Positions 10,443 to 64,000 of a stretch of DNA of 64,000 nucleotides are shown here, one piece after another. Positions within the stretch are counted from its first letter, which is position 1, and each line of letters opens with the position of its first letter. The DNA lies in contig JADCRB010000037.1 of NCBI GenBank assembly GCA_021464245.1, positions 8,093,316 to 8,157,315 of the forward strand, read 5' to 3'. Both the position numbers and the translations under genes were made by a program. Under the pieces are notes generated by a model. That model saw nothing but the letters and a program-made list of their open reading frames with translations, was not told where the DNA came from and did no database searches. This DNA comes from Carallia brachiata (Eukaryota > Streptophyta > Magnoliopsida > Malpighiales > Rhizophoraceae).

Positions 10443-10480
<38 letters not shown>

Positions 10481-12953: not shown

Positions 12954-13621
12954 AGTTTTAAAAACCGGACCGGTTATTGAACCGGTAAGAAGACTGGGTT
13001 AGTGGTTTAGCGGTCCAACCGGAAAACCGGCGGTTGAACCGGCGGGTCAATTCTGATTTGATAAAATAATAATTAATACTTATAATTTTTCTTTTTTTAT
13101 AACAAACAATGAGTATAATCATAAAAAATAGAATATGAGTCTACTAAAATTTAAAATAAAAATAAAATACAAAATATTTATGATAATTTTCTAATTAAAT
13201 AAATTAATAAAGTATAAATATCAAAAATAAAATATTATAGAACTATTAATCGAATATTCATATCAAAAATAAATATTATAGAGTCAATATATAATTCAAA
13301 AATATTACATTTTTCATTAATATAAATAAGTATTATTTATTCTCATTTTTAATCCAAAAAAATAAATAAAGACGTCGTTTTGATCAAGATGACATGGTTG
13401 CCGGTTCACCGGTCCGACCGGCCGGTTCACCGGTTTTGGAGTTACTGGTTTTCCGGTCCGACCGACCGGTTCACCGGTTTTCCGGTCCGACCGGCCGGTT
13501 CACCGGTTTTCGGGCGGTTCATTTCCTGTTCCGGTTTTATCAGTGAACCGGACCGGTCCGACCTCCGGTTCACCGGTTTTACGGTCCGACCGGCCGGTCC
13601 GGTCCGGTTTTTAAAACTATG
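12951..13621. mobile_element. MITE (hAT-like) with CCGGTT-rich subterminal repeats, 671 bp
   Basis: Near-perfect terminal inverted repeats begin CATAGTTTTAAAAACCGGAC on both ends. The flanks are an 8-bp direct duplication GCTGCTGC (12943-12950 and 13622-13629), although the target is itself a GCT repeat. The right part (about 13395-13610) is a dense array of accggttcaccggtttt and ggtccgaccgg units. The centre is AT-rich and non-coding. An 8-bp target duplication fits the hAT superfamily. The insertion lies inside the first codons of small-gene copy B. Confidence 0.8.
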
Positions 13622-13629
13622 GCTGCTGC

Positions 13630-14160
13630 TGATGCCATATCCGATCCCTTCTCTTCTAATTCCCTTTCTGTTCTGTTGTTTGAAACTCTTCGGAGATTGA
13701 AATATGTTGCACCAGAAAAAAAAGAGAAGCTGGGAATGGTGGAGTTGGCAGGAGCAGTGGTGGGAATGGTTGTGCTTGGATGTTGTTGCTGCTGCTGTTG
13801 GTGTTGATTGTTTGGTGGGCATCTCATAAGTTTGATGTATGGATTATATAGAGATGGCAATCATCAAAATACCCCTCATTTTAGTGCTTTATTGCCTATT
13901 TCGCCCTTGCATTACAGTTTAAAGACCTTTTTTTTATTTAAGTGAGGATAAGGAAGATGATAAAAGTTTTTTAGCATGTGGCCAAAGGAACTTAAATCGA
14001 TTGAGTGAAGGATAATGCTACTTTTTCATGACAAGTTGCCGTATGGTTCACGTTGAGAATTCCGTTGTCTGGTGGTTATGGGAGTCATGATTTGGGCAGT
14101 AACCAGGGTGGCTCTGAGTCGCTGTCCCCCCATCTTGTCCAAGATAGTGCTAGGTTCATC
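13630..14160 (-). promoter_or_regulatory. Promoter and leader of small-gene copy B, displaced by MITE
   Basis: Inverse counterpart of the copy A promoter. A TATA box (TATATAA on the minus strand, 13844-13850) and leader are followed by the original ATG, then the MITE. The G-box of copies A and C is changed here: the + strand reads ttcacgttgag where the reverse complement of the intact site would read ttcacgtggag. Confidence 0.55.
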
Positions 14161-14170
14161 GCATTTCATT

Positions 14171-15513
14171 TCATTTTAAAACTTTTTAAAATGGAACAAT
14201 TATATATCTCATCTTTCGAAATGTAATTTAGTTGATAATTCAGTGCATTTTTATTCATATTAGCTTGTGGTCAAGTTTTTGCAACAACGCTTTAGTATGT
14301 TAGATATATTGTATTTTATGCGTCGTAGGTTTTAAACTCATTTATACTACAACCGAACATAAAAGATGTTAACTTGGATTTAACAGTATTCAAGTAATAG
14401 GTCCACCTTATAAAAGATAGTTAAATGAAGATATCAACAGTATAAACAGAAATCTCAATCTACGATTGTTATAACCACCAACATGCCTGCAGTTACTTTT
14501 TTTATTCTTAAAAAAACAAACGAAAAAAGTTTGAATATTCGACCTATGATTCTATAAATACTCTTAAATATAAAAATATTTTATAATGTAAATTTTTATG
14601 AAGCATAACTCGAGCTGCTAGTTAAAACGATGATTTGATGTGTGTTCTATACTAGCGACTTAGATTCAATTTACCACCGTGCCACTCCCTCCTCATTTGA
14701 AGGATACATGGGTGTCCTCCCAAAGTTTGAGCTTGAAGGATTTGGTTGTTGAGTGCAAGAGATGAGTGTTAGCATTAAGAACTTGTCATCACACTAAAAT
14801 TTTAAAAATGTGTAACGTCACGAGATAAAAGAAAAATTAGTCCTAAGTATTTATGAATTTTTATAATCAAATTTTAACTCTTTTCATTTCTTCATTTCAA
14901 TCCTAAACTTTCAAGATCCACTACAACTAAGTCATTTCGTTGACAAAATTGGGTCTAACCATTTAGTTCTGTATGTTGACCTAATAGAAATAATCTCAAT
15001 TCTATTGAGGGAATAACTTAATTGCAATAGATTTTGAAAGTTTAAGATTTAAATGGAAAAACAAAACAAGTGACAATTAAATTGTAAAAATTTATAAAAG
15101 TTTAGGGCTAATATTTCTTTCATCCTGTAATGCCATAGGCTGAGATATTATGGTAAGAATTCGAAGGGAACCCTAACAATATTAGCCAACAATCTCCCCT
15201 TCAGCGTTATAAGAGTGACTTAGAATTCATAACCTCATTGTCATTCCAATTGTTAGGATCAAGCACTTGCCATCACACAAAAAATTTAAATTATTATTAA
15301 GATATAATTTTATTTCCTTAAACTTTCTTCGATACGCATTTATTGTTGAGAGACTGCACTTATTACAAGTATCATGAGTGAGATATTAAGCTCAAAGTCC
15401 AAAAGAAATGCTAACAATATTAACTAATATTGAGTTCCCAATTAAAAAATTATTATAGTTTGCATTAACAGAGTTTCGCATGAGTCTATCAGTGTTCAAG
15501 TGATAGATACTCC
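14171..15513. other. AT-rich intergenic DNA
   Basis: No gene recognised. Fragments such as catcacac(t/a)aaaa-ttttaaa recur (about 14786 and 15272), suggesting decayed repeats of unknown type. Confidence 0.5.
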
Positions 15514-16357
15514 TTATACAAAAGGTTGAATGAGAATATCAATGAGTTCAACTTTGTTTGTAGGTGCGACCACCAATATCCATGTATTGCAATATTTTTG
15601 TTTGTGCAATATAATATATATATATATATATCTCTCTCTCTCTTCATCACTGGAGTCTTTTGTATCCTGGGCAAGATTAATGGTTTTGCTAGTAGACTTC
15701 TTGGAGGAAGAAGGAGGACTTAATTCCTGAGACATTTCTTGCATGATTGCAAGATATTCTTCTCTGGTTTTAGCAGTGGAGAGTTTAAATTGCCAATGAG
15801 ACTTCTCAGTCAAAAAAGCAACATGTTCATTGTTCATTGCTGGCAACTGAGGATAGGAGGCCTCAGCATGTTGTTTTAAATGAGCAGTAAGCCATTTGTC
15901 AACTGCTGAGAGTTTAACATTGTAGGGAATGTCATACGAGGTATTTCCCAATTATCAATGTTTTTAAAATTTTCATAAGTCATTTCTTCTCGATTTACTA
16001 CTCTACGGATCTCAGAGGAGTCTGAGGTAGAAGAGTTTGAGAAAGAAGTGGATCTACAGAAATTTGGATCCATTCCTTTTTATTGGGGATTGGACTCCTA
16101 ATTCATTTTAATGCAGTGTTTAATGGTTTATAATTAATGACAAGGCAGGGAATACCACGTTCAATTTCTGAATTCTTATTAAAATAGAATGCAGCACATG
16201 ACCATGGTGATCTTGATTTTCTGATTAACTTCTTACTAAGTAAATCAGAAATTTCCTGTTTACAATGAGCAAGGAGTTCAGCATTCATCTGAACTGGTCT
16301 TGCTTTCGTAAGAATTTGACGTTCATCAAAACTCTTTTCATATGGTAAATCAACCAT
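15514..16357 (-). mobile_element. Endogenous pararetrovirus (Caulimoviridae) relic, rearranged
   Basis: Two open segments on the minus strand resemble plant pararetrovirus polyprotein. The first (16357-16103) is the start of a reverse transcriptase domain, with an LLSKKLIRKS-SPWSCAAF stretch and LVINYKPLN, and ends before the catalytic YxDD motif. The second (16073-15570, with one frame change near 15950) begins MDPNFCRSTSF and reads through a DKWLTAHLKQHAEASYPQLP segment and a Ser/Lys-rich tail. It looks like a viral structural or movement region and not RT. In an intact genome these would not be adjacent in this order, so a deletion or rearrangement lies between them. TA microsatellites at 15608-15632 and 16402-16428 flank the relic. 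It cannot encode a functional product. Confidence 0.65.
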
Positions 16358-16403
16358 ATGTTGTTTACGTTCTCAAAATGCTGTAGGCAAATCAAAACAT
16401 AAC

Positions 16404-16434
<31 letters not shown>

Positions 16435-17299
16435 CATAACACTTTGAATAAAATAAAAAAGACTTTTATGAATATCTATTCTATGATTATAATTTTTTTA
16501 TATTGTATGGAATATTATTTATACAATATAAAATATTTTATATGTAATATAATAATTTTTTTAATGGAAATGAATTTATAAAATTTGTATAAAACATTCT
16601 CCTAATATTATATCGGATTTTCTTTTACAAAAATTAGATAATAAATATCAAGTCATAGTCTTACCTTGTGGAAAAAAATTAAATTTCTCTTCTCTTGTTG
16701 ATTTAACCACATCCCATCATCCCTTCCCCTCCCTCAAGAGAATACTGCTTGCTTGCCCTCTTCATTAGAGAGAACATTTTATTTTTTTAAATAACATTTG
16801 ATAGCTTCAAATATGTAATAATAAATAGTTATATAGTCTCATCCAACTATTTTGATAGTTTAATAAATTTTTTTTATTTTTTTAATTAATTTAATCATTT
16901 AACAGTTTATATTATTTTATAATTATTTTAAAACTATTTAAGTGAAGTCTCAAATTTTTTTCTTATTTTTTTTACCTAAAAAAACACTATAATATAATGT
17001 AAATTCGTATTTTGAAAGCATTAAGTGAACTTAATGGTAAACATGTAATAAATCTTGTATTTTTACTTGCTCGATACATTCAAAGGACACAATTTAGAGT
17101 ACAATTACAGTACCAGATAATTTTGCACCCAAGAATTGCACCCAATGTAACAGCTGTCTAAATTTTTACAATGAATCTTATATTTTTTGCAACAAATAAC
17201 AAAAATAAATGAAAGTATTTTTTAGTTGCAAAGAACAGGAGTGCCATTGCAAAACTTAGGTGGCCATTACATCAGACGTAATCTTTGGACACGAAATCA
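16358..17299. other. AT-rich intergenic DNA with (TA)n run
   Basis: A TA dinucleotide run occupies about 16402-16428. The rest is AT-rich without coding signal. Confidence 0.6.
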
Positions 17300-17800
17300 T
17301 CCGGTACTATAACATTTTCTTATAATTTATGGAGGTTTTCATGAATGCAAGTACTTGCAATTTGACAAAACAACTGGTTTGGCCCCACAAGATCGACTCT
17401 GCAATTTGCCCTTTACTCCTCCCCAGCAACAACAAACAAAAGAAAGTTCAGCTAAAAAAACAAAACAAAAGACGGTTGTTTGCTTGGACTAGGTGACAAC
17501 TTGTCATCTTGTGCTCAATTAGTTTGCCAAATTTTTGCAGACTTTAGACATGCGTGTGGAGGGGGGAGGTCAAAGTACATTGAAGCAAGACCCTTTTGGC
17601 CTTCAACATCCACCACGATACTGCACTTCCTTGTCACCCCCTTTCCCTACTAACATCGGCATGCATCAAATCACAGCATCTTAGCAATTTGATTAAGGTT
17701 CAATAGTTCAATTCAAAATATTTGTTCTAATTTAGCTTAATAATCTTATCAATGTTATGAATAGAAGGACTTTCTTAGGAACCTTCACAATATTGGTGCC
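17300..17800 (-). repeat. Inverted-repeat copy 2, partner of 5370-5900
   Basis: Reverse-complement copy of 5370-5900 with many small indels. The gggaggtcaaagtacattgaa block, the aagacggttgttt block and the cttgcaatttgacaaa block line up in reverse order with the first copy. Confidence 0.8.
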
Positions 17801-18460
17801 GAAAATTTTTTAATGCGATACAAGGCTTGATTTTAACACGACTCAACAACCAAATACTTCAAGCTCATACTTTGGTGAGCAAACCCATGTATCTTTCAGC
17901 TTAAAAGGAAATGACGAGGTGGTGAATTGAATTTGAGTTCTTAGCGTAAAACGCACATTTAATTATCATTTAAATTATCAAATCGAGTGATATTATATAA
18001 AATATTTTTATTATAAAATATTTTTATATTTAAGTATATTTATAGAATTATTTGTCTAATACTCGAATCTATTTTTCTTCGTTCATTTAACAATAAAAAA
18101 ATATTAATAAGTATATTAATTATAATATCTATAAATTAAAATTGTTATTTATATATTATGTCTTTATTTAACCATCTTTTATAGGGTGGATCAATATAAT
18201 TTGACTTAAATTAAATTCTTTTATATTAAATTATGATATTAATAAATTTAAAATTTATAATACATTAAACACAACATCTCAATATATTACATCGCTGTAA
18301 TAACTCAAATTTAAATTAATATAAAAAATATATTAAATTATCTTCTAAATAATCTCATCGAACAATGAGTTTTTGATCAAAAGATCTATTCCTGTTCCGC
18401 TTTAGAAAGTTGCGGAATGAATTGAAATGCATTAACCAAGCACTATCTTGGACAAGACGG
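17801..18460. other. AT-rich intergenic DNA
   Basis: No gene recognised; low-complexity AT tracts dominate up to the poly-G run. Confidence 0.5.
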
Positions 18461-18825
18461 CCGCCGGGGGGGGGGGGGGGGGGGTGACAGCGACTCAGAG
18501 CCCGCCTGGCACACTGCCCAAATCATGACTCCCATAACCACCACAAAAAACGGAATTCTCCACGTGAACCATATGGCAACGTGTCCAAAAAAGTAACATT
18601 ATCTTTCACTAAATCGATTCAGGTCCCTTTGGCCACATGCTAAGGACCTTTCGTCATCTTCCTTATCCTTACTTGAAAAAATAAAAAAAGTCTTTAAACT
18701 GCGATGACTATAATACCATTGCTTGTCCTCCATTATTGGGAACCATTTTGTCCTAGTGCAAGGGCAAAACAGGCAATAAAGCACTAAAATGAGGGGCATT
18801 TTGATGATTGCAATCTCTATATAAT
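18440..18825 (+). promoter_or_regulatory. Promoter of small-gene copy C with 19-G run
   Basis: Collinear with the copy A promoter. It keeps the G-box CACGTG (18561-18566) and the TATA box TATATAA (18818-18824). At its upstream edge a run of 19 consecutive G (18466-18484) replaces a tract of only five G in copy A and six in copy B. Confidence 0.6.
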
Positions 18826-19039
18826 CCATACATCCAACTAATGAGATTCCCACCAAACAACTAACACCAACAACAGCAGCATCAACATCCAATCACAACC
18901 ATTCCCACCACTACTCCTGCCAACTCCACCATTCCCAGCTATTTTATTATTATTTTTTTTTCCTGGTGCAACATATTTTAATCTCTGAAGAGTTTCAAAC
19001 AAGAGAAAAGAAAGGGAATTAGGAAAGAAGAGATCGGAT

Positions 19040-19238
19040 ATGGCATTAGCAGCAGGAGCGACTAGGACAAGGGGTGATATGATCAATGGTGGCTATCACT
19101 CGCAGAGGTTGTCTGGCCGCTTGATTCCGAAGAGGGGCCAAATTTAAGTTGACAATTGTTCTGGGCCTGGCCCAATCTTTTGCCTCCATCTTTTCTCCTC
19201 GCCGGAAATGGGCTGATCATGCCCAGTTAGCTCACTAG
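19040..19238 (+). pseudogene. Small conserved plant protein, copy C (frameshifted)
   Basis: Same start as copy A (MALAAGATRTRGDMINGG) and the same SQRLSGRLIPKRG block. One extra base in the gggccaaatttaagttg stretch shifts the frame and gives a stop after 36 codons. The IVLGLAQSFASIFS-coding stretch follows in the displaced frame and ends at a stop matching the family stop position. The promoter is well preserved, so this looks like a recent inactivation. Reading the extra T as a sequencing error would restore the family-length frame. Confidence 0.7.
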
Positions 19239-21680
19239 ATTAGAGTCAAGTACACGCTTGAAACTGAGAAACTCCCAAGTTTTGTCCGAGAGAAAGAGAT
19301 GGACTCCCTAGGAATTTAAGGAGCAGTTTGGCATGAACTACATGAGTTTCTTAGAGCTTCTCTTGTACAAAGTTGCCCAAGTTTGATTGTCAATTGAGAT
19401 TCATTTTTGTTTCGATCTCATTTCACTTTTCTAGCAGTATTATTAATTGCCGCATAATTTCTTCCTTTTTTCATTGTATAGCCTTTACTGACAATATTGT
19501 AGCGTCCATTGAAGATATCATTGTATGAAAATGTTACATCAAATATAGTTTAATAAAGAAACTAAACTTTGACACCGATACAGCTTTCAAGATAGATCCG
19601 GGATAAATAGGGTTGCTAGTCATTGAATTTGTGACTTAGCTCTAATTTTATACTACTCAAGCACCAAGTTTTCCTTGTTGTCTTGATGGCAATGCATCCA
19701 CGACCTTCAACAAAGGTCATGCGTTCGAGGAACGGTAGAAATAATAACAACGAAGCATTAAGTTTTCGTATCCCCAATGCCGGACACTTTATTTTTCAAT
19801 GACTTTCTTTTGCAATGTGTTCTTTTGATGTAATCTAATATCAATAAGTCTCTTTTCTTTTTGATGATTTTTGATAAAATATAATGATTTTTGACAAAAT
19901 CAGTTACCACGTAAACTTTTAGAAGGCCAAAAATTAGAACAATTTGGTTCCGCTAGTTCATGTCTTTTGCTTCAAAGCGAGCCTGTCCCTTGATTATTAC
20001 TAAAAAGAGTTTATGTTTCGATTAACTGAATTAAAATATTATAAATATTCCTGAACTAAAAATTTTAGTTATATAAAATTGAAAATTGTTCATAAACTAA
20101 AAATTTGGTTAGCTGAAATTCTGTTAAATGAAAATTTTAATTTAGTTTTGGTTAACTGTTTTGTTAACTAAATTTAATAACTAAAAATTTTAAAATTTTA
20201 ATATAAATGTAAAAATATATTTTTGGTATATTTTTTAAAAGAAAATTAAAATTATCATTATATATATGATATAAATAAGTGATTATTTAGGATATAATAA
20301 TATTTTCTTAATATTTATTTGTTAATAATCTTTGTATTAGTAATATTTTTTATTATTATAAGAACAAATAAAAAAAATGTATATAAAATAATATTTCGGT
20401 TTAGTTTGGTTAACTATAGTTTTTTAATATTAGAAACTAAAACTGAACTGAAAATTTTGATTTTTATTTGATTCGGGTAACCAATTAAAAAATCGATTTG
20501 GTTAATTAAAAATTTAATTTGATTTAGTTTGGTTTTCTTGGTTAATTAAATTTTCATTTTTTTAATTGAAATTTTTAATTTTTTTAACATCCCTAATTAT
20601 TACTCCATGTTGTAAAGCAGGGAAGTTTACACTTGTTTACTAATTATAATGGTTTGTCAAGCCTCCCTTTTTACCTTTTTTTTTTTTTTTTTTGTCGCTC
20701 GTAAAGGTTGGGTCTCCCACAAAGGGGAAGGAATATCTTAGCCATCGGTGAGAATTTCGCCCACATCAGATGACCAATCTTGTTCACCCCGAATGATCAT
20801 GTTGGGTGCATGGTGACCTTGTATAATCGTATCAAGTAAGCAACAGGGGCTTTGTCACAATACTAACTTATGGGTTAACAGGTTACATTTTGGCCAAGTA
20901 TCCTACGACCCTTTTTTTTTTTCGAACAATTAGAAAAACAAATAGGTCTAAAAACTAAAGAGAGACAGATCAAAATTCTTCTTGTTTTTTTTTTTTAACT
21001 TTTTTTTCCTGAAGATAAAATACCCGCAAACAAAAACAAAAGAGGAGTCTAATATGAAGGAATTGTCGATGTTGTTTTAAATCAAGATTTGCTTTAATAC
21101 TAAACTGACGTAGAACAGCTTATGAAATTAACATGTGACAACAAAAAAAAAAAGTACTAAAGAAACTATGAGAATATGCCCAAAAATATAAAAAATAACA
21201 AGAATCTACTCATAACACTTAGGAACCCATCTGCAAAACAAACGAAAATTATATTTATTTAAATTATCAATTATCATAAACAGTTTCAATAACAAAACTA
21301 ATATTAAAATTTATTTATAGGACTAGATCGACTAATTTAAATAAAAAAAATAAGTCTAATTTAGAAATTCAGAAATGTTACTCAACAATATAATATCTAA
21401 TCTAATAAATTTAAATTAACATCATAAATACAAGATATTAATAAATTCTTAAATAATAAAAATATTATTTCGTTATTCTCCTTTTATCATCTTAACAATT
21501 AAGAAAAAGACAGGTCAACGCAGTGACCTACTTGACGACAGAGAAAGGAAGCCTATAGGCTCTTGTATTTCGAAAGAGCGAAAGCCTGGCTATGGGGGCT
21601 TACTTGCTCTCTTGCAATTATTGTTCTGGATCCACCCAGCTCTGACAGGAAGCCAGTCTCTCTTAAATGATTCGTTTGCT
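19239..21680. other. Intergenic: copy C 3' flank, then AT-rich repeat DNA
   Basis: The first ~320 bp continue the homology with the 3' flank of copy A. From 20030 to 20600 the sequence is rich in wttaattr-type inverted motifs (ggttaattaa, ttaactgaa) typical of a decayed MITE. A segment around 20690-20850 has non-random composition but no assigned family. No gene was found. Confidence 0.5.
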
Positions 21681-49393: not shown

Positions 49394-49398
49394 GGTGG
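49394..49398. repeat. Target-site duplication GGTGG (left)
   Basis: Five bases directly before the left LTR, identical to 59413-59417 directly after the right LTR. This shows a single integration event for the element. Confidence 0.93.
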
Positions 49399-50081
49399 TG
49401 TAAAGTGTAAATTTCGAGTCTAAAACAATTAAACTCGAAAATACAAAAATAAATTACAAATAAAAATTGTAAAAGAAAAGAAAATTTACGTGGGGTCGAT
49501 CTCCGTAGATCCTCCGATTAGTGTTCCTTTTTTTTTTGACTCCGTCAAGGGCTGCACGAGCTTGATCTGGACAGAAATAATTTCCACCGCTTTTTCTTGA
49601 ACTGGATAGACTGAAACTGTGTCCGATTTGGATGTTTTGACTACGTTTAGGAACCGTAGAGACTCGATCTGAGTTGATCTGACTTAATTTCACCGAGGGT
49701 CGAATGGACTTGTTCTCGGATGAGTTGCCTGGATTTTGCTGAGGGCCGTATGAGACTTAATCCCAGCCGAATTTGTAATATTTCGATTTTTTTTTTTACT
49801 ATCTCTCTTTCTTTTTTTTCTTTTTTTTTTCCTTTTTTCTTTTTTTTTTCTTTGCACTGCGCTTCGCTGCCCTTTTTTTCTTTTTTTCTTCTTTTTCTTC
49901 TTCTCTGCTTCTGCTTCTTTCTAATTGGGGGGAGGCCATTTATAGGCCTCCCCCATGCTTGCCACCAACCAATTGGTTGGTGGCATTAAAGGCAAAGGTT
50001 GGCAGCTGCCAACCTTCAAGGTTGGCGGCTGCCAACCATTATTATTATTATTTTTTTTATTTATTTATTTATTTGTTTACA
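49399..50081 (-). repeat. 3' LTR of the Tat element (683 bp)
   Basis: Begins tgtaaagtgtaaatttcgag and ends gtttaca on the plus strand, giving TG...CA ends. It carries a poly-T/poly-CT block and four consecutive palindromes (49928-50037). It is 34 bp longer than the other LTR because of low-complexity indels. Confidence 0.93.
49928..50037. other. Four stacked palindromes inside the LTR
   Basis: Inverted repeats in a row: gggggaggcc with its complement, 7-base loop (49928-49954); a perfect 22-bp palindrome ccaccaaccaattggttggt-gg (49962-49983); a perfect 18-bp palindrome ggttggcagctgccaacc (49997-50014); and ggttggc/gccaacc with a 4-base loop (50020-50037). The same set is kept in the other LTR (59264-59373). 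Confidence 0.9.
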
Positions 50082-50097
50082 AATGCCCCAACTTCAA
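50082..50097 (-). other. Polypurine tract (PPT)
   Basis: On the minus strand tgaagttggggcatt lies directly upstream of the 3' LTR. It is purine-rich with the gttggggcat form common in plant gypsy elements. It primes plus-strand DNA synthesis. Confidence 0.7.
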
Positions 50098-50436
50098 GGG
50101 TCGGTAAGAAAAATTTTTACAGAGATAATTCGAACCGAGTCTTGAAGTCCAGTTTGAAATTTGGAAAGTCCTGATGAACATTGAATCTTGGAGTCTTCTA
50201 TCTTTGACCATGTCCGCTGTTGTTGGATCGCAATAAAACCGATATGATCTTGAAGAAGTTAGCAGCCCAGCCAATATAGAAATTGAAGTCTTGGCTCCAG
50301 GTGCGTTCGAGCTTCCATGGCTGGCAAAGGCTGGCAAATTCTTTGAAGTTCCAAAGCTCTGGTGAGGATGATCCAGTAGGCAAAGAACTTGAACCTCCCC
50401 AAGAGGAAGGCAGGACCTTGGAACTTCAAGACCGGC

Positions 50437-50739
50437 TCACAGAGAGACTGACTGTAGTGATGATTTCCAAGTCTGCTTCGACGTAAGGAGAGTAGTTGGA
50501 ACTTCCCTGTACGTCGCTGCATCCAAAGAAAGATTAGGATAATTGCAGCTTCTCATCCCTCTGTGGTAGATGTGAACTAAGGAGAGTAGTTGGAACTCCA
50601 TGACACCGATGGCGTTGGAGACTGAGTTTCGAGGGCTTTTAGGGATCCCTCGAAGAAGACTACTCCTTCTTTTCTTAGCTCGTGCGCCTCCAACTTCTTG
50701 ATCGAAGAACTTCCTGAGACAAGTGCAGAGACTAGCCAT
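50437..50739 (-). CDS. Unrecognised 100-aa ORF in the extra region of the Tat element
   Basis: Starts MASLCTCLRKFFDQEVGG and contains a basic stretch (RAKKRRSSLLRG). The start codon lies in a favourable context (aaaagaaaatggct). A TATATATA box at 50794-50802 is about 55-60 bp upstream, consistent with an independent small transcription unit in sense with the element. I recognise no family. It could equally be an accidental open frame in the region between pol and the 3' LTR, and no homologue is visible in the window. Confidence 0.35.
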   Translation of the reverse strand: MASLCTCLRKFFDQEVGGARAKKRRSSLLRGIPKSPRNSVSNAIGVMEFQLLSLVHIYHRGMRSCNYPNLSLDAATYREVPTTLLTSKQTWKSSLQSVSL

Positions 50740-51016
50740 TTTCTTTTGAGAAAGAAGAGCTGAGGGGTGAATATTACAACTCGGGCATGCAGGATATATA
50801 TACAAATAATAAAGAGTTTTTTTTTTTTTTTTTTTTGAAAAGTCAAAAAAGGTATGCAGAATCGGTAGGGCCATCCACGTCCCTTTCCTGCATAAGAGAC
50901 AAAAGAGGCAGCGGCTGACGCGTGTCACGAAAGTCGTTACCGTGTGTGGCAGAAGTCGTTGCCGTGTGCTGCGGAAGTCGTTGCAGAAGTCGTTGCACCT
51001 TATCTTGTCGGCCGTC

Positions 51017-51632
51017 CTAGCGGGGCCCGAGGTGCAACTCCAAGTCAAGCTCGACCTCGTCTGGTGGGCCGATGATGTTGGCGTCGACGTCGCTTTCCGG
51101 CTGGTTGATGCTGCCGGAATATTCTGGAAAGAGAGGCAAAATTTCGCCGGAATGACTCCTGTGTGCTAGAAAAATTCCTCCTAGACTTAAGTATCTAGGA
51201 GGGATGAACCCTTGGCTGACTCCGTGAAACCACCAGGACCAGTATGTATGCTCCCATAGGCTACGGCTTTGATGAACGTACCGTGGAGAGACCATTGCAG
51301 TGGTAGAACTTGGGCCGGCTTCATTTGAGGGTGAAGCTGTACTGGTGAGATCTACTATAGGAACAACAGGCTGTGCTTTGGAAATACCATCTCTCAGCGC
51401 CATGTTTCCCTATGTCTCCGATTCTGGAACCAAAAATATACATTTTTTCCTTCGACTGCCCCTAGCGGGCGAAGTCGTGAGACAAGTTGGAGAATCTGTG
51501 TAGAGTTAGGGACAATACCTCCATCGTTGTAGAAGACTTCCTCCAAAATTTGCAGTTGTGCCATGGTCGGTTGCCACCTTGTGCGAGGTGACCTTTTTCT
51601 CCCTTGTCTTGAGGTTCTGCAACTGGTTCCAT
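51017..51632 (-). pseudogene. WUSCHEL-type (WOX) homeobox gene captured by the Tat element
   Basis: Sense-oriented with the element, between pol and the 3' LTR. From the ATG at 51632 a short acidic leader (MEPVAEPQDKGEK) runs into the homeodomain after a one-base loss in an A-run near 51592. The homeodomain (51585-51397) reads RTRWQPTMAQLQILEEVFYN, then LRPLGAVEGKNVYFWFQNRR. The EGKNV-WFQN helix 3 and the extra-length loops are specific to the WUS class. After a second frame change at about 51395 the protein continues to a WUS-box-like ILPLFPEYSG (51142-51113) and an EAR-like LDLELHLGP at the C-terminus, stop at 51017. No intron interrupts the homeodomain. Predicted length is about 205 aa if both breaks are ignored, which fits WUS/WOX proteins. 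WOX proteins are stem-cell transcription regulators that repress or activate targets in the nucleus. Confidence 0.8.
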
Positions 51633-51720
51633 CTTTCTTGCGGCAGAGGAGCAAAGGTCTTGGTATGTGGTGAAGATCGGTTGAGACTGATGCTGAGTTT
51701 CAGACTCAAACCCTCCGTTG

Positions 51721-51728
51721 CTTTTATA
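51721..51728 (-). promoter_or_regulatory. TATA box of the captured WOX-like gene
   Basis: TATAAAAG on the minus strand, about 90 bp upstream of the WOX-like ATG. The leader between them (acggagggtttgagtctgaa) has no upstream ATG. Confidence 0.55.
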
Positions 51729-51749
51729 TTTTTGGGCCGTTCACAGTTT

Positions 51750-51990
51750 ATACTCATGCGGGCCAGGAGTTGGATTGGATTTTGAACTTGGGTTCTGGAC
51801 TTGTTTGGACTTGGAATTTTTGGGTTTTGGGCTTTGGATTGGATTTGGGTCGAGTGTTTGGGCTTCTAGACTTGGATTTTTGGACTTGGGTCGAGTGTTT
51901 GGGTTTGGATTTGAATTTTTTGGATTTGGGTTGAGTGTTTGGGTTTTGACTTGGGCTCAAGTGTTTGGGTTTGGACTTTCGCTTGGTCTT
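51750..51990. repeat. Degenerate minisatellite upstream of the WOX-like gene
   Basis: Imperfect units around acttgggtcgagtgtttggg and ttggatttttggacttggg repeat about every 40-60 bp. On the minus strand this lies directly upstream of the WOX-like TATA box. Confidence 0.75.
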
Positions 51991-52006
51991 TCAGATCGGG
52001 ACTTCG

Positions 52007-52041
52007 CATTTTTTTTTTTTTGATTTTTTTTTTTTTTTTTT

Positions 52042-52082
<41 letters not shown>
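52007..52082. repeat. Long poly-T (minus-strand poly-A) tract after pol
   Basis: Almost uninterrupted T, broken only by gatt units, including a run of more than 40 T. On the element strand it is a long A-tract just after the pol stop codon. Confidence 0.9.
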
Positions 52083-52086
<4 letters not shown>

Positions 52087-52090
52087 ATAT

Positions 52091-53385
52091 TTACACATAA
52101 TACTGTTTCAGAAATTTACCATTGATTGGGCCGATTCGGACGCCTTCTTGGTCTGACAGCATGTAAGCGTTGTGAGTGTAGGCCTCCTGCACTAAGTATG
52201 GCCCGTCCCATTTGGAAGTAAGCTTGTCACCAGGCCGATGCTTCATGTTGATGGGCCGTCGCACTGCAAGAACAAGTCTCCAACTTGAAAAGATCGAGGG
52301 CGGACCCTGCGGTTGAACGTGTTGGTGAGCCGGGCTTGGTAGCACTCAAGTTGCTGTTGTGCTTCGAGCCTCCTTTCATCGGGCTTCTAACTCATCCAGA
52401 CGTAGGCGAGCATTCTCTCCTGTGTGAGTCCTTCCAGAACAGCCATGCGAGGGATGGAATCTGTGTTTCCAACGGCAGTATTGCTTCGACACCGTAGACA
52501 AGTGAGTATGGCGTCGCCTGTGTTGGAGTCCGGTAAGTTGTACGATACGCCCATAATGCCTCCGGAATTCTGTCATGCCAATCTCTTTTGGATTTAGAGA
52601 CTACCTTCCGCAACAGGTTGCATAAGGTCTTGTTGAATGCTTCGGCCAAGCCATTTGCTGGGGCATTGTACATGGATGACTTGTACTGCTTGAACTTGAA
52701 CTTCTCGCAGAGCTTGTCGATTAAGCTGTTGTAGAACTGCTTACCATTATCAGTGATGATGAATCGAGGGACTCCATAGCGATAGATCAGCTGAGTCCGG
52801 ATGAAATTGGCAACATGCTCCTTCTTTACCTCTCTAAGTGGAATGGCTTCAGCCCATTTTGAGAAGTAGTCGGTTGCTGCGAGGATGTACAGGTGACCCA
52901 GGGATGACTTTGGCAAGGGCCCCACTAAGTCGAGACCCCAAGCTTCAAAGGGCCAGGATGAGACAGTTGGATGCAGTGGCTCCGGTGGTTGATGTATGTA
53001 ATTCGCATGAAATTGACAAGCTTGACAGTTTTAGCAAACTCAATTGAATCACGTACCATGGTTGGCCAGTAGTATCCCATCCTTCTGAGTTGGAAGTGCA
53101 ACTTAGGCCCGATTGATGTCCGCCACAAACACCAGAATGTGCTTCAGTGAGAGCCTGTTTTGCCTCTTCATTGGCTAGGCAGCGAAGTAGAACTCCATCA
53201 AAAGACCTTCGATACAGAGCATTTGAGATATATGAACCGGGGAGCTCGTCGTTGAATTTCTGTCTTATGACGACGATCTTCAGGCAGCTTCCCGTGCTGT
53301 AGATAGTCAATGATTGGTTGGCGCCAATCTTCGTCCTCCGCGAGACGTACAGATACAGCGTTGGCTGCTGTAGTTTCTTCATCAT
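52091..53385 (-). pseudogene. Tat element integrase (frameshifted)
   Basis: Integrates the cDNA copy. The zinc-binding N-terminal part appears around LTEAHSGVCGGHQSG (H-H), then in a second frame MGYYWPTMVRDSIEFAKT. The catalytic core (52392-52960) carries the D,D,E residues in LDLVGPLPKSS, FIITDNGKQF and PANGLAEAFNKTL. The C-terminal part in another frame ends SKWDGPYLVQEAYTHNAYML, RIGPINGKFLKQYYV and a stop at 52091. At least three frame changes break the domain. No chromodomain is visible at the C-terminus, as usual for Tat and Athila elements and unlike chromoviruses. Confidence 0.88.
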
Positions 53386-53443
53386 CCTTTTGTGGCACTA
53401 TCCATTTCTGACATACAGCAACAACTGTAGCCTGGATTTCTGA

Positions 53444-53834
53444 CTTTGCAAGAGAAGTAGCCAGGTTAGCCAACGCGTCTGCCTGAGTGTTTTCTCGTCG
53501 AGGCACATGCTCCAAGGTGATGCTTTCAAATTCATCCATTAGCTGTCGAGCACGTTGATGGTAAGGCGCAAGGTCCTCTTTCTTCACGTCATACAATCCT
53601 GTAAGTTGGTTGATGACGAGCTGGGAATCTCCATGGACTTCTATAGTTGGAATCTTCATATCGACAGCCATTTGAAGACCAATGATCAAAGCCTGGTATT
53701 CAGCAACATTATTTGAACATAACTCACCGAGAATGATAGCATATGGTAGTATTTGTCGTTGAGGGGGTGACAAACACTATGCCGGCACCAGCACCATCAC
53801 GCCTTGCTGCACCATCAAAGAACATCGTCCATGG
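53444..53834 (-). pseudogene. Tat element second RNase H (archaeal-type, aRNH)
   Basis: Lies between the first RNase H and integrase. Catalytic acidic residues are all recognisable: Asp in TMFFDGAARRDGAG, Glu in NNVAEYQALIIGL, Asp in VHGDSQLVINQL and Asp in RRENTQADALANLA. A one-base loss in a C-run near 53760 (caccccctcaac) separates the first motif from the rest. This extra domain is the marker of the Tat lineage and probably supplies the RNase H activity, because the upstream domain has lost key residues. Confidence 0.9.
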
Positions 53835-53914
53835 TGGCAGTGTCTCAATGTGAAAGACCTCTTCATCTGGAAGATCATCTGTGAACTCCCAATCTGACGG
53901 AACAGGGTGATCTG

Positions 53915-54285
53915 CAAGGAAGTCTGCTAGAGCTTGTCCTTTGACTGCTTTTTGAGGCACGTAGACAATGTCGTAGCTTTGTAGGATTACTGCCCACTTG
54001 GCAAGTCGTCCTGACAAGATTGGTCTGGATAAGATATATTTGACAGGATCAGCTCTGGCAATGAGACGTACCGTGTGAGCTTGCATGTAGTGCCTCAGCT
54101 TGTCAATGGCAAAGAACAGTGCTAGACATGTCTTTTCAATGGGCGAATAACTCAGCTCCGGACCATTTAGTGTTCTGCTCAAGTAGTACAGGGCAACTTC
54201 CTTTCCCTGCTCATTTTCCTGTGCAAGCAAGGCTCCCAAAGATCTTTCCTGTGCTGCAATGTAGAGAATCAACGACTTTCCTTGA
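53915..54285 (-). pseudogene. Tat element first RNase H (gypsy-type, degenerate)
   Basis: Contiguous with RT in one open frame. The family DAS-type start of the domain is replaced by YIAAQERSLGALLAQ, so the first catalytic Asp is gone. Downstream landmarks remain: YYLSRTLNGPELSYSPIEK, ALFFAIDKLRHYM and WAVILQSYDIVYVP. In Tat elements this domain persists as a connection or structural domain after acquisition of the second RNase H. Confidence 0.85.
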
Positions 54286-54385
54286 ATTGGAGCACCTAGG
54301 ACCGGTGGATTGGAAAGTACTTCTTTATGCTCAAAGGCTTTGCTGCAAGCTTCGTCCCACTCGAAGTTGACATCCTTCTTCATCA

Positions 54386-55410
54386 ACCGATGGAAAGGTT
54401 GACATCTCCCAGCTAAATTGGAGATGAAACGGCGAATGTAGGCCAGCTTTCCTTGTAGACTTCGCAGCTCGTGCAGGTTTTTAGGTTCAGGCATCTTTTG
54501 AATTGCCTCAACCTTTGACTGATCAACTTCGATTCCACGATGGCGCACCACGAACCCAAGAAACTTTCCTGATGTGACACCGAATGCGCACTTGAGAGGG
54601 TTCATTTTGAGCTGATGCCTCCGAAGTCTTTCGAACACTGTCTTGAGATCCTCGAGGTGGTCTTTGCGCTTCTTAGTCTTTACAACTAAGTCATCAACAT
54701 AACATTCTACAATCTTGTGCAGCATGTCATCAAAAATTTTTTGCATAGCACGTTGATAAGTGGCGCCAGCATTTTTCAATCCAAACGGCATAACTTTGTA
54801 GCAGTATATACCTTTTGGGGTGCGGAATGCTGTCAACTCCTCGTCTTCTGGTGCCATTCTGATTTGGTTATAGCCTGAAGAACCATCCATGAAGGACAAT
54901 GCTTCGTGACCCGTTGTTGCATCGACTGTGATCTCCGTTATGGGCAATGGAAAGTCATCTTTCGGGCAGGCCTTGTTAAGATCTCGAAAATCAACACATA
55001 CCCTCAACTGTCCATTCTTCTTTCTTACGGGACAATGTTGGCAATCCACGTTGGGTAGGTGACCTCTCGGATGAAGCCAGCATTGATCAGCTTGTTCACC
55101 TCCTCCTCGATTTGTGGAATGAGTTCCGGGCGGAACCGTCGTTGTGGCTGCTTGACAGAACGAACACCCTTCTTTACTGCTAGACGATGCACCGCAATTT
55201 TGGGTCAAGTCCAGGCATTTCTTTGTAACTCCATGCGAACACGTCCCTGTATTGACTTAATACCTGAACATATTCTTGCTCTTCTTCTGCAGTAAGTAAA
55301 GCACTTACAAATGTAGGTCGAGGATCTTCCGGAGAGCCAAGATTGACCTCCTTGAGTTCATCAACAGTTGCTTGGCCACCATCTTCAAGTTCCGGGGGAG
55401 CCTCCTTCAC
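54386..55410 (-). pseudogene. Tat element reverse transcriptase with its N-terminal linker
   Basis: Copies the element RNA into DNA. The linker (55410-55180) reads PEDPRPTFVSALL and YRDVFAWSYKEMPGLDP. A one-base loss in an A-run near 55195 and a second near 55030 put the finger region (RFRPELIPQIEEEVNKLI) in another frame. RT proper then reads VRKKNGQLRVCVDFRDLNKA, SFMDGSSGYNQIRMAPED, YKVMPFGLKNAGATYQRAM and the catalytic YVDDLVV (54701-54681), with LKCAFGVTSGKFLGFVV after it. The YVDD core is intact. Confidence 0.92.
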
Positions 55411-56030
55411 TTCACCATCTGATGAGTCAGACTCAGCCTCCTCGCTAATTGTGACATGAAATGAACCTCTGACTTCACCTTCTTTGTTTGACTGGATAAG
55501 CCTGTCTGTTTGGTGGTGGTGGTGATGGCACGTGCATCAGCTGCTCGGCTTCGGCTCTTTAGCGTGATCCGCACAGGTGACTTCTCCTGATAGCCTAAGC
55601 CAGGTCGGGACTGTGATGTTTGAGAAGCGGCGCCATGTGTGGACGGCAGCGTACCCATTGTGCTCGGGTTTGAGAAGTCATAGCCCGCCTTTGCCAAAAG
55701 CTTGTATGCATTAGGATCAAATCCTTGTGTTCTTCTTTCTGGAAGTGAGCCGCCTTCGACTGCCCCCGTGTGTGGTTTGACGAAGCCTTTTAATGGTTTT
55801 GAAGACAAAACCGGCTCAATCTTTGGTATCGGCAGAGTGTAAGTCTCCTTCAGGTTGTGCAGCTCCTTTGTTTTGGGTTGGCTATGACCTTGCTCCTGTT
55901 TAAGATCAATACAATAAGAGAAAGGGGGTTGACCTTCTGAGCGTCGTGACTTGGCACATAGCGTAGGACTGGAGTGGAGCTTGAAGATGCAACATCCTTC
56001 GGACGAAGTTCAGCAGGCTGTGGCAGCTTT
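55411..56030 (-). pseudogene. Protease-RT linker region of the Tat element
   Basis: Low-conservation polyprotein sequence rich in Ser, Pro and Lys, with a recognisable GFDPNAYKLLAKAGYDFSNP segment (about 55735-55680) that is common before RT in this group. Frames change several times. Confidence 0.7.
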
Positions 56031-56615
56031 TCATTTGTTGGAGCCTGGGTTGGCATTGGCAGGTTCTTCGACAGCTTTTCCCTTTTTGTGGATGCCCCCA
56101 GTCCAAGTAGCTTTTGACGGAATGATCTCCGGATTGTCTGTGTCAGTGTAGAAGACTGCATCCGCCAAATGTGATTCAGCATCATCGAACGGCTTTAAGT
56201 CAGCATTGACCTTTTGAACGCCACCATTGTAGTACTTGAAACACTGATGCAGGCTTGAGAGCACAACTCCATTTCCATGAATCCACGGTCGTCCTAGCAA
56301 CATCTTATATGTGGTACGTGCATCAATCACGTGAAATAGAGTGCTAGAAGTGAGATTACCGATAGTAGCTCCAAGCGAATCATCCCAATTGCTTTCTGTC
56401 CTCCTTGATTAAAGCCATGAATCATCAAGCGGCTGTCTGATAATTCATCAACCGATGCCGAGCTCCTTTATGGTGGATTTTGGGATAATATTGACTGCTG
56501 AGCCATCGTCGATCAGAATACGTCGACCTTCTGTTCTTTCACATAGCCTGATACATACAGCGGCCGATTGTGGGGTTTGGACCCCAGCAGGAGATCCTCA
56601 TCTGAAAATGAGATA
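56031..56615 (-). pseudogene. Tat element aspartic protease (frameshifted)
   Basis: Processes the polyprotein. The segment begins DEDLLLGSKPHNRPLYVSGY (56605-56545), shifts frame, then shows the active-site region ILIDDGSAVNIIPKSTIKEL. It shifts again to SDSRLMIHGFNQGG and ends in FHVIDARTTYKMLLGRPWIH. The catalytic Asp precedes GSA as in related plant elements. Three single-base frame breaks occur within about 200 bp. Confidence 0.8.
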
Positions 56616-56894
56616 GCAGAGTAACATCCGACGTGATTTTGGTCCGCCTGTTGCTCCGCTGAGTTAGATCATTTGATGGCTGTGATTCAGCTGAGGTCTG
56701 GAGAGTATTGCGACTTGATTTTGCCACACTTCTGTTGTTTGCAAAGCTGTAAACAGCTGAGGGTTAGCGAGAAGGGTTTGGAGAGCTTCATATACCTTCT
56801 CCGTTGTCGACTTTTTGTTGTCGAGCGGCTCCTCCTTACGGTGTGTCACTCTTCTGATGGTTTTGAAGTGATGGTGGTCTGGTTTGCAGAGTTA

Positions 56895-57000
56895 TGCCTT
56901 CCTGGTCCAGAATGATTTTATTCTGGCTTTTGAGCTTCATGATTAGCTCCTTCAGGACGAAACACTTCTCGGTTGGATGACTTACTATCCGGTGATATTT
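56895..57000 (-). pseudogene. Tat element zinc-knuckle-like motif (CX2HX4HX4C)
   Basis: The minus-strand frame reads FCKYHRIVSHPTEKCFVLKE. Spacing equals that of the retroviral CCHC knuckle, with His in place of the second Cys. It lies between gag and protease and probably binds RNA. Confidence 0.75.
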
Positions 57001-57030
57001 GCAGAATCTGGATCGCTGACTCGATCCTTT

Positions 57031-58544
57031 TCATTCGGCCGCTTGCACTCTGGGAGTTCGATCAGCTTCGCCTCCAGAGTTGTTCAAGAATGTCGGGGAC
57101 GTCTGAGTCGGGGAATGGATACTGCTTCTGCTCCACTCTCGCAATGTCACCTTCCGCCTTTCCTGTTGTTTTGGCTGAGTTATTTGGGTCGGAGGATTTA
57201 CCTTAGCTTTGGCGCCCACTTTTACTGGTGCGGCTTCAACAGTCATCACTTCTTTCCTTTTCCGGAGCTGTTGGGTTTCTTAATCTCCCTTCTGCCCCCT
57301 TGCTGGTCCAACTGGATGGGAACCGTGCCTCCGGAAGTCTGGATGCTTATCTCCATATCATGTGCGCGGGTCGCCAGTTCTTCGAAAGTTCGGGGTTTGA
57401 CACCCTGCAGGATGTATAACAGCTCCCAATGCATTCCCTGGATGCACATCTACGGCAGAAGTCTCCGTCAGGCGATCTTTGCAGTCCAAGCTGAGGGCAC
57501 GCCATCTGTTGATGTATTCGACAACGGGCTCTCCTTTCCTTTGTTTGGTGCTGGTAAGCTCCATCATACTTACCGTCCTTCGAGTGCTGAAAAATCTGTT
57601 GAGGAACTCTCGTTGTAGCTGTTCCCAACTGTCGATCGATTCTGGTTCAAGATTTATGAACCAGGTGAAAGCGGTCTCCCTGAGTGAACGAACAAACTGC
57701 TTCACCAAGAGATCTCCGTAAGTCCCTGCGTTGTTGCAGGTTTCAACGAAGTGGGCGATGTGCTGTTTGGGATCGCCTCGTCCGTCGAATTGTTGAAATT
57801 TGGGCGGCTGGTAGCCCAAGGGCATGTTGAGACTTTCGATCCGTCTGGTGTACGGTTTGACGTACATCTGCGATCCTTGGAAGGATGTAGCTTGTTGCAG
57901 TCGGATCGTATTGGCTATCATTTCCTGCAATTGTTGAACAGATAGCGAAGCTACAGAATTTGAGGGTGGCAGCTGTGTAGAGAACTACCTGGTCGCTTTT
58001 CTGCAGGGAAGACGTCGGCTGGTGTGGCTTCTGGAGTGAAACCGGGTGGATATGGTTGCTCCTCGCGGATTTCGGGATCAACTTGGATCGGGGCTTTTCC
58101 TTTGAGAGCTGCGATCTGTTGATCTTTTTCCTCCACGACTCTGATCAGCTGTAAAATTTTGTTCTCCAATTCTGAAATCTTTCCTCTGTGCTGGTTGTGT
58201 TGGTCATCATGACGGCAACAGATGAGGCTCCGGGAAAGACTGGGGGAGAAAACTCTTCTGATTCTTCTGTGTGAGTGGATTTTGTTGAGCAGGCTTCGTC
58301 GTGTTGCCCCCGACTTCGATCGGGGTGGGTGATCGACTCCTCCATGCGGCAAGAGAGTCAGGGGAGAGATCCTGTTGTGCAAGCTGTGGACTCTCCATTT
58401 CGACATTTTGTCGGGTTTGGACGGCAAGAAATTGTGTCCGTCCCCGGGTTTCTGGACCTGCGTACCCAGGTAGGGTAGTTGATGCAGGCAATGGAGCCGT
58501 TGCCTTCTTTTTGTGGCAGCAGTTGTACTCCTTTTCGGTGCCAT
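57031..58544 (-). pseudogene. Tat element gag (frameshifted)
   Basis: Structural protein of the virus-like particle. The first ATG (58544, MAPKRSTTAATKR) follows the PBS by about 200 bp. A coiled-coil-like stretch (GKISELENKILQLIRVVEEK) precedes a frame change. The retrotransposon gag core then reads PPKFQQFDGRGDPKQHIAHF, FVRSLRETAFTWFINL and QLQREFLNRFFSTRR. Near 57447 one base is lost and the frame continues as [19 protein letters not shown] and [15 protein letters not shown], then a Lys/Pro-rich tail. Confidence 0.85.
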
Positions 58545-58739
58545 TTGATGTGCTGAACACCTGTAAAATTTTTTTTTTTTTTTTTTTACTTTTTACTTTT
58601 ACTTTTTTTTTACTTTTTACTTTACTTTTTTTTACTTTTTACTTTTTTTTTTTTTTTTTTTTTTTACTTTTTTTTTTCTCTCGGCTCCCCTTTTACCTCT
58701 TTTTTTTTTTTAGGAACAAGAGATGGGAGGTGAAGAGTT

Positions 58740-58757
58740 GTCCCACCGAGCGTGCCA
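58740..58757 (-). other. Primer-binding site (PBS)
   Basis: On the minus strand TGGCACGCTCGGTGGGAC lies 6 nt after the 5' LTR. Its complement ends in CCA, as expected for pairing with a tRNA 3' end. I did not assign the tRNA. Confidence 0.75.
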
Positions 58758-58763
58758 AAAATT

Positions 58764-59412
58764 TGTAAAGCGTAAATTTCGAGCTAAAACAATTAAACTC
58801 GAAAATACAAAAATAAATTAAAAAAAATTGTAAAAGAAAAGAAAATTTACGTGGGGTCGATCTCCGTAGATCCTCCGATTAGTGTTCCTTTTTTTGACTC
58901 CGTCAAGGGCTGCACGAGCTTGATCTGGACAGAAATAATTTCCACCGCTTTTTCTTGAACTGGATAGACTGAAACTGTGTCTGATTTGGATGTTTTGACT
59001 ACGTTTAGGAACCGTAGAGACTCGATCTGAGCTGATCTGACTTAATTTCACCGAGGGTCGAATGGACTTGTTCTCGGATGAGTTGCCTGGATTTTGCTGA
59101 GGGCCGTATGAGACTTAATCCCAGCCGGATTTGTAATATTTCGATTTTTTTTTTTTTACTATCTTCTTCTTTTTTTTTCTTTTTTTTTTTTTTTCTTTGC
59201 GCGCTTCGCTGCCCTTTTTTCTTTTTTCTTCTTTTTCTTCTTCTCTGCTTGCTCTTCTAATTGGGGGGAGGCCATTTATAGGCCTCCCCCATGCCTGCCA
59301 CCAACCAATTGGTTGGTGGCTTTAAAGGCAAAGGTTGGCAGCTGCCAACCTTCAAGGTTGGCGGCTGCCAACCATTTTTATTATTTTTTATTTATTTATT
59401 TATTTGTTTACA
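58764..59412 (-). repeat. 5' LTR of the Tat element (649 bp)
   Basis: TG...CA ends (tgtaaagcg...gtttaca). It is nearly identical to 49399-50081 over the unique part (gtggggtcgatctccgtagat onward). Visible differences include three or four C/T changes, an A/G change (ccgaat/ccggat) and indels in poly-T tracts. Confidence 0.95.
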
Positions 59413-59417
59413 GGTGG
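59413..59417. repeat. Target-site duplication GGTGG (right)
   Basis: Identical to 49394-49398. Confidence 0.93.
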
Positions 59418-63129: not shown

Positions 63130-64000
63130 ATGGTTTGTAGTTTAAAATAAGATTTTACCCTCTATATTTAACAGTTTTTACTGTTTTGCCCATATCGTTT
63201 TTTTTTTGTTGGACCATGCCCTCTAACTTTTTTCCGTTAACTATTAATGTCATTTGCTGTTAGTTAACTGTTAGTCAACTACTACGTCAGCATCTTTTAA
63301 CAGGTCAGCATGCCACGTCAAAAAATTTGCTGACGTGGCATATTTCAAAAATCAGATTTTTATTTTTTTATCTTATTAATTTATTTTTAATACGATAAAA
63401 AGAAATGAAAAACACAATTTTCTTTTTTTTTTTTGAAAAATCCTAATTTTAATTGTTTAAAAACAAAAAAATAACAAAATTGGTTTCCTTTTTTCAATAT
63501 CTTTTTCCAAGAAAAAATATTAAAAAGAAAACGAAAACTAATTTATTTCCTTTTTTCATTTTGTTAATTTATAGTTTTAATGTAATAAAAAGAAATGGAA
63601 AATTGAAAAATAATAATTTTAATTTTTTTAAAAGAAGAAAAATTATTTTTCCTTTTTTTCCAATGTAAAAAGTAAAATTAGTAAAAGAGAAAACAAATTT
63701 TACTTTTTTTTGTGTTTTTTTAAAGTAAAATTATGATTTAAAAAAAATGAAAAAAACAAAAATTAAGTTCCCAAAAATTAGTTTTTTTTTCTTTTCAGTA
63801 TTTTTTCTTGGAAAAAGATATTAAAACAAAGAAACTAATTTTATTTTTTTGTGGTTATTTAAAAAATAAATTAGGATTTTTTTTAAAAAAAAATTGTGTT
63901 TTTCATTTCTTTTTATGATATGAAAACTATAAATTAACAAAATAAAAAAAAACTGATTTTTGAAATACTACTATCAACAAATTTTCTAACGTGGCATGCT
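63130..64000. mobile_element. Foldback element with long inverted arms, truncated by window edge
   Basis: The left arm contains gcatgccacgtc, atatttcaaaaatcagattt and atgaaaaacacaatttt (63308-63425). The right arm gives their complements in reverse order (ttgtgtttttcatttcttttt, actgatttttgaaata, aacgtggcatgct) up to 64000. The pairing axis is near 63655. Further direct tgacgtggca motifs lie at the left. It is non-coding and continues beyond the window. Confidence 0.7.

Follow-up and report, generated by a model that had tools for sequence, protein, structure and literature searches.

An intronless WUSCHEL-like gene carried by a Tat-type retrotransposon family of Carallia brachiata is predicted to encode a small repressor

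The window analysed here, a stretch of 64,000 nucleotides from Carallia brachiata (assembly GCA_021464245.1, contig JADCRB010000037.1, positions 8,093,316 to 8,157,315), contains a Ty3/gypsy long terminal repeat (LTR) retrotransposon of Tat type, which bears a gene of WUSCHEL (WUS) type as cargo. We propose, with a probability of roughly 0.7, that the family of this element carries an intronless descendant of WUSCHEL, likely captured long ago from a spliced transcript, whose predicted product is a small WUS-like repressor that would serve the element. An initial annotation, made from the letters of the window, had described a Tat-type element with a GGTGG duplication and a cargo downstream of the integrase, in sense, with a WUS-class homeodomain, a WUS-box-like LPLFP, a terminal LDLELHL and a box about 90 bp before the ATG; paired LTRs, reading frames, Pfam positions and motif locations uphold all of these points. 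On the sense strand the order is integrase, a spacer with a 40-bp array, the TATAAAAG box, the ATG, the homeodomain, LPLFP, LDLELHL and the 3' LTR, and the cargo features of the window copy are as follows.

51017..51632, minus strand: WUS-type cargo gene, frame-shifted in the window copy, in sense between integrase and 3' LTR
51721..51728, minus strand: TATAAAAG box (TATA box), 89 bp upstream of the cargo ATG at 51632
51403..51579, minus strand: WUS-type homeodomain, 59 residues from RW (Pfam, WUS alignment, predicted fold)
51125..51139, minus strand: WUS-box core LPLFP (motif)
51029..51049, minus strand: terminal LDLELHL, an LxLxL EAR-type motif (motif; PF07897 E 0.0043, under its cut-off)

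The WUS character of the homeodomain is corroborated by sequence and by predicted fold. It matches the Pfam Homeodomain with an E-value of 5e-10 and the solved homeodomain of Arabidopsis WUS with one of 1.4e-16, the latter alignment being ungapped at 47% identity, and a one-residue gap is needed for its alignment with STF. The AlphaFold model consists of three confident helices, and ranks 1-7 of its Foldseek list are structures of WUS homeodomains. According to the available part of Sloan 2020 (PMC7203112), R38, Q89, N90 and R94 read the bases, and the inserted Y54 is specific to WUS within the WOX family. All four base-reading residues are retained in the cargo, and the extra residue at Y54 is present, as Y in copies of the window type and as H in a diverged subfamily; the backbone contacts Y86, K92 and R96 are altered. 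The tail open reading frame (ORF) is the sole one with L.LFP and a terminal LxLxL among the 269 stop-to-stop ORFs of at least 60 amino acids in the window, and in 200,000 shuffles of it LPLFP arose 66 times, a terminal LxLxL 829 times and both together never. Because the base-reading residues and both motifs are retained, the product is predicted to be a DNA-binding repressor. The cargo had also been described as a coding sequence; its homeodomain, WUS-box and EAR-type motif are indeed present, but in the window copy no two of ATG, homeodomain and WUS-box/LxLxL tail share a reading frame, so that this copy cannot make a whole protein.

The cargo is found at many places in the 337.5-Mb genome of the window, which was queried with the cargo DNA, the Arabidopsis WUS homeodomain and the leader of the diverged subfamily. 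Matches to the cargo or to its leader occur at no fewer than 205 distinct places, and first-look candidate counts of 1,052-1,392 suggest further places beyond these; the fear that the cargo might be absent from other copies of the family was unfounded. With the 741-bp cargo DNA as query, the best 40 of 1,271 first-look candidates match over the full length at 98-100% identity, one of them without its last base. The frame is kept elsewhere, a condition that the initial annotation had named: in 23 of the 40 window-type copies (39 fetched and the window copy) the cargo reads without a break through 203 or 205 codons, and these 23 encode 7 distinct proteins. Both LTRs were measured in 33 of the 39 fetched copies, the other 6 having no LTR within the fetched stretch, and the median LTR divergence of the 33 is 0.0114, three copies standing apart with 0.054, 0.060 and, over 145 columns, 0.165. 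An integrase frame of at least 360 open codons occurs in 3 of the 39, a figure that offers no fair contrast since the copies were picked by their cargo.

The diverged subfamily came to light with the Arabidopsis WUS homeodomain, for which 150 places were scored: nine host WOX places at 65-84% identity, followed by 141 at 54-58%. All 34 of these 141 that were fetched are cargo of the second subfamily, to which the remaining 107 were assigned by identity only, and 13 of the 34 show no interruption between the homeodomain and the stop codon. The query with the leader and first codons of this subfamily returned at least 40 places, 24 of them new by comparison of coordinates, and the whole cargo DNA is present at 90-96% identity in 20 of 20 leader-selected copies (17 from new places). 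The TATAAAAG box was found in 11 of the 12 assessable diverged copies (13 were looked at). The TATA box and leader are conserved between the two subfamilies, which suggests that the cargo may have an expression of its own. The stretch L146 shows the same integrase-cargo-LTR order as the window element, at 91% identity over 2.9 kb; that diverged cargo of the unmixed kind also sits in an element is indicated by the shared leader only. It was also observed that the cargo of L135 and of L146 (C9:1495900-1499500) is mosaic, diverged-like at the start of the homeodomain and window-like from helix 3 onward, which suggests recombination between the subfamilies or a stepwise intermediate.

Comparison of these copies provides moderate evidence that the cargo homeodomain is under constraint. 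When neutral drift to the observed divergence was simulated, the homeodomain stayed free of stops in 5 of 500 runs. The subfamilies differ by a synonymous divergence (dS) of about 0.2-0.5 in the homeodomain, and simple counting gives ratios of non-synonymous to synonymous change (dN/dS, omega) of 0.26-0.69 in 13 comparisons between them. With diverged copies found by homeodomain similarity, codon likelihood yields an omega of 0.69 (p 0.012) for homeodomain and tail, and of about 0.3, on a grid, for the homeodomain alone. The dN/dS comparison across copies that had been called for gives, with diverged copies chosen by leader, an omega of 0.44 (p 0.028) for the homeodomain. This leader-based test comprised 11 of the 20 leader copies and 37 window-type copies, in 9 distinct rows of which one is mosaic (L135); the nine leader copies dropped have frame shifts or odd ends. 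The window-type copies, with at least 9 amino-acid and 5 silent changes, are too uniform for dN/dS.

With regard to origin, the simple reading is the capture of a spliced RNA, which we consider likely and which the initial annotation had put forward. The distance from homeodomain to WUS-box is 1,143 bp in the host WUS gene L097 and 1,036 bp in L098, with stops in every frame, and 279 bp in the cargo, with none; because the host genes need more than 1 kb with stops where the cargo has a short stop-free gap, the cargo probably derives from spliced RNA. The lack of an intron in the homeodomain, on which the earlier argument leaned, is true but uninformative, as the ATG and homeodomain of L097 and L098 likewise share one open frame; it is the absence between homeodomain and WUS-box that informs. 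Two marks of a gene captured by a retrotransposon, missing host introns and sense orientation, are thus seen in the cargo. An A-run lies 3' of the cargo; A-runs are common throughout the element, and this one was hence not read as the remains of a captured poly(A) tail.

The phylogeny of the homeodomain points to an old event. The tree has 41 rows (6 element, 23 WUS, 12 other) and 59 columns; 23 of the 27 fetched database proteins and P0002 entered it, P0039, P0059, P0074 and P0113 being left out, and the WUS rows are 20 database rows labelled WUS (some annotated hypothetical), two host genes and Arabidopsis WUS. The six element homeodomains form one clade (99/100) with a stem of 0.85 changes per site, and the end branches of the WUS rows are at most 0.11. 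This single, long-stemmed clade of element rows makes an old capture likely. A homeodomain length of 59 is found in all 23 WUS rows and all 6 element rows, and one of 58 in 11 of the 12 other rows, the lone exception being the unnamed, WUS-like P0002. The placement in a WOX phylogeny that had been proposed gives the single clade and the WUS-type length; 59 columns, a long stem, an unsettled bootstrap and mostly open forks are too little to fix the point at which the clade attaches, among WUS orthologs or outside them. The cargo stands apart in the tree from the nine host WOX places (65-84% identity to Arabidopsis WUS); L097, L098 and L099-L105 are presumably, to judge from likeness, paired host WUS, WOX1-like and WOX4-like homeodomain genes.

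Protein searches are consistent with a WUS-type ancestry. With the diverged-subfamily cargo, 422 of 494 candidates reached E<=0.01 (best E 4.9e-17, 81 bits), and among the 120 matches listed, of plant WUS type, many are named WUSCHEL or WUSCHEL-like. The window-type cargo retrieved five homeodomain proteins among 140 candidates, and the window-copy homeodomain piece alone had no match in the protein search. No closer database relative was found by this word-based search, no relatives were found in the prokaryote and viral collections, and NCBIfam gave no match on the cargo.

We hypothesise that the cargo would be translated from its own short leader, with the TATA box 89 bp upstream, or from the element RNA, and that WUS-type sites would be the targets of its homeodomain. 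Through its WUS-box and EAR-type motifs the product would then bring in co-repressors of the TOPLESS type, in the manner of Medicago HDL (PMC6305195). It may act on the element itself, on genes of the host or on the stem-cell niche; we infer that the element may in this way adjust its own transcription, or that of host genes, within the lineage of shoot stem cells that gives rise to plant gametes. Since plant gametes derive from shoot stem cells, a WUS-like protein could aim transposition at the germline. A bolder and rather unlikely extension is that the retrotransposon family turned a master regulator of stem cells into a gene of its own, a WUS-derived repressor that it long kept and that would direct transcription or cell fate among the shoot stem cells which found the germline, new insertions being inherited as a result.

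Several results weigh against a maintained repressor that serves the element. Of the 11 residues of WUS that Sloan 2020 singles out, the cargo keeps 8, for which P is 0.058 given the overall identity. The tail after the homeodomain has an omega of 0.99 (p 0.66 against 1), as if neutral, and constraint on the tail went undetected among recent copies. In the transition-biased neutral simulation of homeodomain and tail the contrast is weak and mixed, with 31, 226, 53, 171 and 52 of 1000 runs at or below the observed value between subfamilies, and 10 and 139 of 1000 within the diverged one. ATG to LxLxL lies in one frame in 4 of the 20 leader-selected diverged copies. Finally, the LTR holds no WUS TGAA repeats, TGAA being depleted, and no consistent excess of WUS sites; the 3' LTR (49399-50081) has 13 TAAT/ATTA where 7.4 are expected, a number reached in 3 of 300 shuffles, and this excess is absent from the 5' LTR and leader.

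It could be argued that the cargo is a passive passenger, a WUS copy amplified with the element and useless to it, whose open frames reflect recent amplification. The window-type copies are indeed nearly identical and young, as their LTR divergence and few distinct proteins indicate, the tail evolves as if neutral, and a broken cargo is seen in 17 of the 40 copies of window type and in 16 of the 20 diverged copies selected by leader. Yet about 0.85 amino-acid changes per site separate the cargo from WUS while fold, base-reading residues, WUS-box, LxLxL and open frames are retained, open frames persist in two diverged subfamilies, and the homeodomain omega is below 1; we accord this explanation a minor chance. 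It seems improbable to us that a fast-evolving host WOX paralog was captured recently, after most of the divergence had already taken place in the host. The tree, with its single long stem, cannot by itself split divergence before capture from divergence after it, and host WOX genes less WUS-like than the cargo would fall outside the best 150 places; however, the nine host WOX places seen do not group with the cargo, and the dS between subfamilies points to some length of residence of the gene in the element.

The preserved residues could also belong to a decoy, a product that competes with host WUS for sites or for a co-repressor and so disturbs or protects meristems, without regulating the element. 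The retention of the base-reading residues and of both co-repressor motifs, together with the three changed backbone contacts, would suit such a role, but a product harmful to stem cells would presumably be selected against at hundreds of copies, and we hold this account to be quite doubtful. The initial annotation had itself raised the concern of a chimeric assembly join, to which a chance insertion in the window copy alone may be added. Nothing but the broken frames of the window copy speaks for it, and it can practically be dismissed: the 205 distinct places, the flanking LTR pairs of 33 of the 39 copies examined, the whole cargo in 20 of 20 leader copies and the same order in L146 led us to reject it.

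The reading that we favour, an element-borne WUSCHEL descendant, takes its setting from the host element, whose features in the window are listed below.

49399-59412, minus strand: Ty3/gypsy LTR element, window copy (paired LTRs and GGTGG on both outer sides)
49394..49398, no strand: left target-site duplication GGTGG, flanking the LTR
59413..59417, no strand: right target-site duplication GGTGG, flanking the LTR
58764..59412, minus strand: 5' LTR (TG...CA), by alignment with the 3' LTR
49399..50081, minus strand: 3' LTR, by alignment with the 5' LTR
57361..57984, minus strand: gag frame (PF03732 8.8e-13)
53727..55256, minus strand: reverse transcriptase and RNase H frame (PF00078 1.7e-34, PF17917 3.6e-23)
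53201..53776, minus strand: second RNase H (aRH-like, RVT_3), between RNase H and integrase (PF13456 1.5e-23)
52395..53030, minus strand: integrase core (PF00665 5.8e-10), with the C-terminal part in another frame, 52094-52345
51839..51954, no strand: short tandem array of 2.9 copies of a 40-bp unit, within the spacer (repeat analysis)

The two LTRs of the window copy differ by 7 substitutions in 647 aligned columns (Kimura two-parameter distance, K2P, 0.011) and by many length differences, chiefly in A/T runs; we take this K2P to correspond, at plant rates, to an insertion age of about 0.4-0.8 million years. The gag-pol frame is shifted at many points, and the copy would therefore not be autonomous. 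An aRH between RNase H and integrase is described as the arrangement of the angiosperm Tat groups Ogre and Retand in the available part of PMC6317226. The window element shows this arrangement, with PF13456 at 53201-53773 between PF17917 and PF00665, a 5-bp duplication and paired LTRs. Its region from pol to 3' LTR (50082-52090) measures about 2.0 kb; the Retand mark PF04195 (TRP28) was found in none of 10 both-strand translations of this region in the one copy scanned, and translations of the same region in the window copy gave no other known Pfam domain above cut-off around the cargo. A second small open frame (MASLCTCLRKFF...) lies between cargo and 3' LTR at 50437-50739 on the minus strand and recurs in L146; it has no Pfam or NCBIfam match.

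Known systems resemble the window family in part. Ogre and Retand elements share with it, as far as the available parts of PMC6317226 and PMC11963269 describe them, the aRH, the 5-bp duplication and, in the stretch that separates pol from the 3' LTR, extra coding sequence and a tandem array. The Retand survey in the latter source reports antisense TRP28 ORFs, sense ORFs without known domain and a pol-3' LTR region of 2,933-6,566 bp, whereas in the window family the sense ORF encodes a WUS homeodomain protein, the one copy scanned lacks TRP28, and the region is shorter. In the parts available of a screen of 121 angiosperms (PMC9289625), PMD, G-patch, AIR1, LONELY GUY-like, B3, AlkB-like and other domains are reported in LTR elements, and the fixation of a captured host domain is described as rare. 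The AlkB/2-ODD domain of orchid Tat-like elements is likewise a host gene domain fixed in many Tat-type copies, but there an RNA demethylase rides in giant elements, and here a stem-cell-niche transcription factor is carried (PMC9289625). The LONELY GUY-like (YgdH) and B3 domains of plant Gypsy elements are also captures from developmental or hormone pathways, of other genes, and the LONELY GUY-like domains, linked to cytokinin, were taken by LTR elements in Citrus and poplar (PMC9289625). Bs1 of maize is also an LTR element with a transduced host gene; transduced genes occur in one or few copies according to the available part of Vicient and Casacuberta (PMC7264820), and the window family is present at about two hundred sampled places. 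WUSCHEL itself (Arabidopsis; HDL in Medicago) has the extra residue, the four base-reading residues, the WUS-box and the terminal LxLxL in common with the cargo, which differs in its 47% homeodomain identity to Arabidopsis WUS, its length of about 205 residues against 302 (HDL), its lack of introns and its carriage by a retrotransposon.

The statement that no described Tat family is known to have such a cargo agrees with our literature search, in which no description of a WUS cargo in a retrotransposon was found. The main text of PMC9289625 contains neither 'homeo' nor 'WUS' nor 'HOX', though its unfiltered supplement may list a homeodomain, and the available parts of PMC6482515 and PMC7329446 speak of WOX genes and of transposable elements without describing a capture of this kind. 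With the LONELY GUY-like captures and the WUS cargo side by side, it can be surmised that capture of meristem-linked regulators may recur. A captured WUSCHEL with many open frames would directly test the use of a host stem-cell programme by selfish DNA, and many intronless WUS-like frames could mislead counts of WOX genes in such genomes.

Elsewhere in the window, several repeat copies, about 73-89% alike and in both orientations, occupy the left part (5391-19545). Long self-complementary stretches, 71-73% alike, lie at 63307-64000 and 596-1070, and an open frame on the plus strand at 1340-1714 ends in a stretch which seems to resemble the C-terminus of a hAT transposase.
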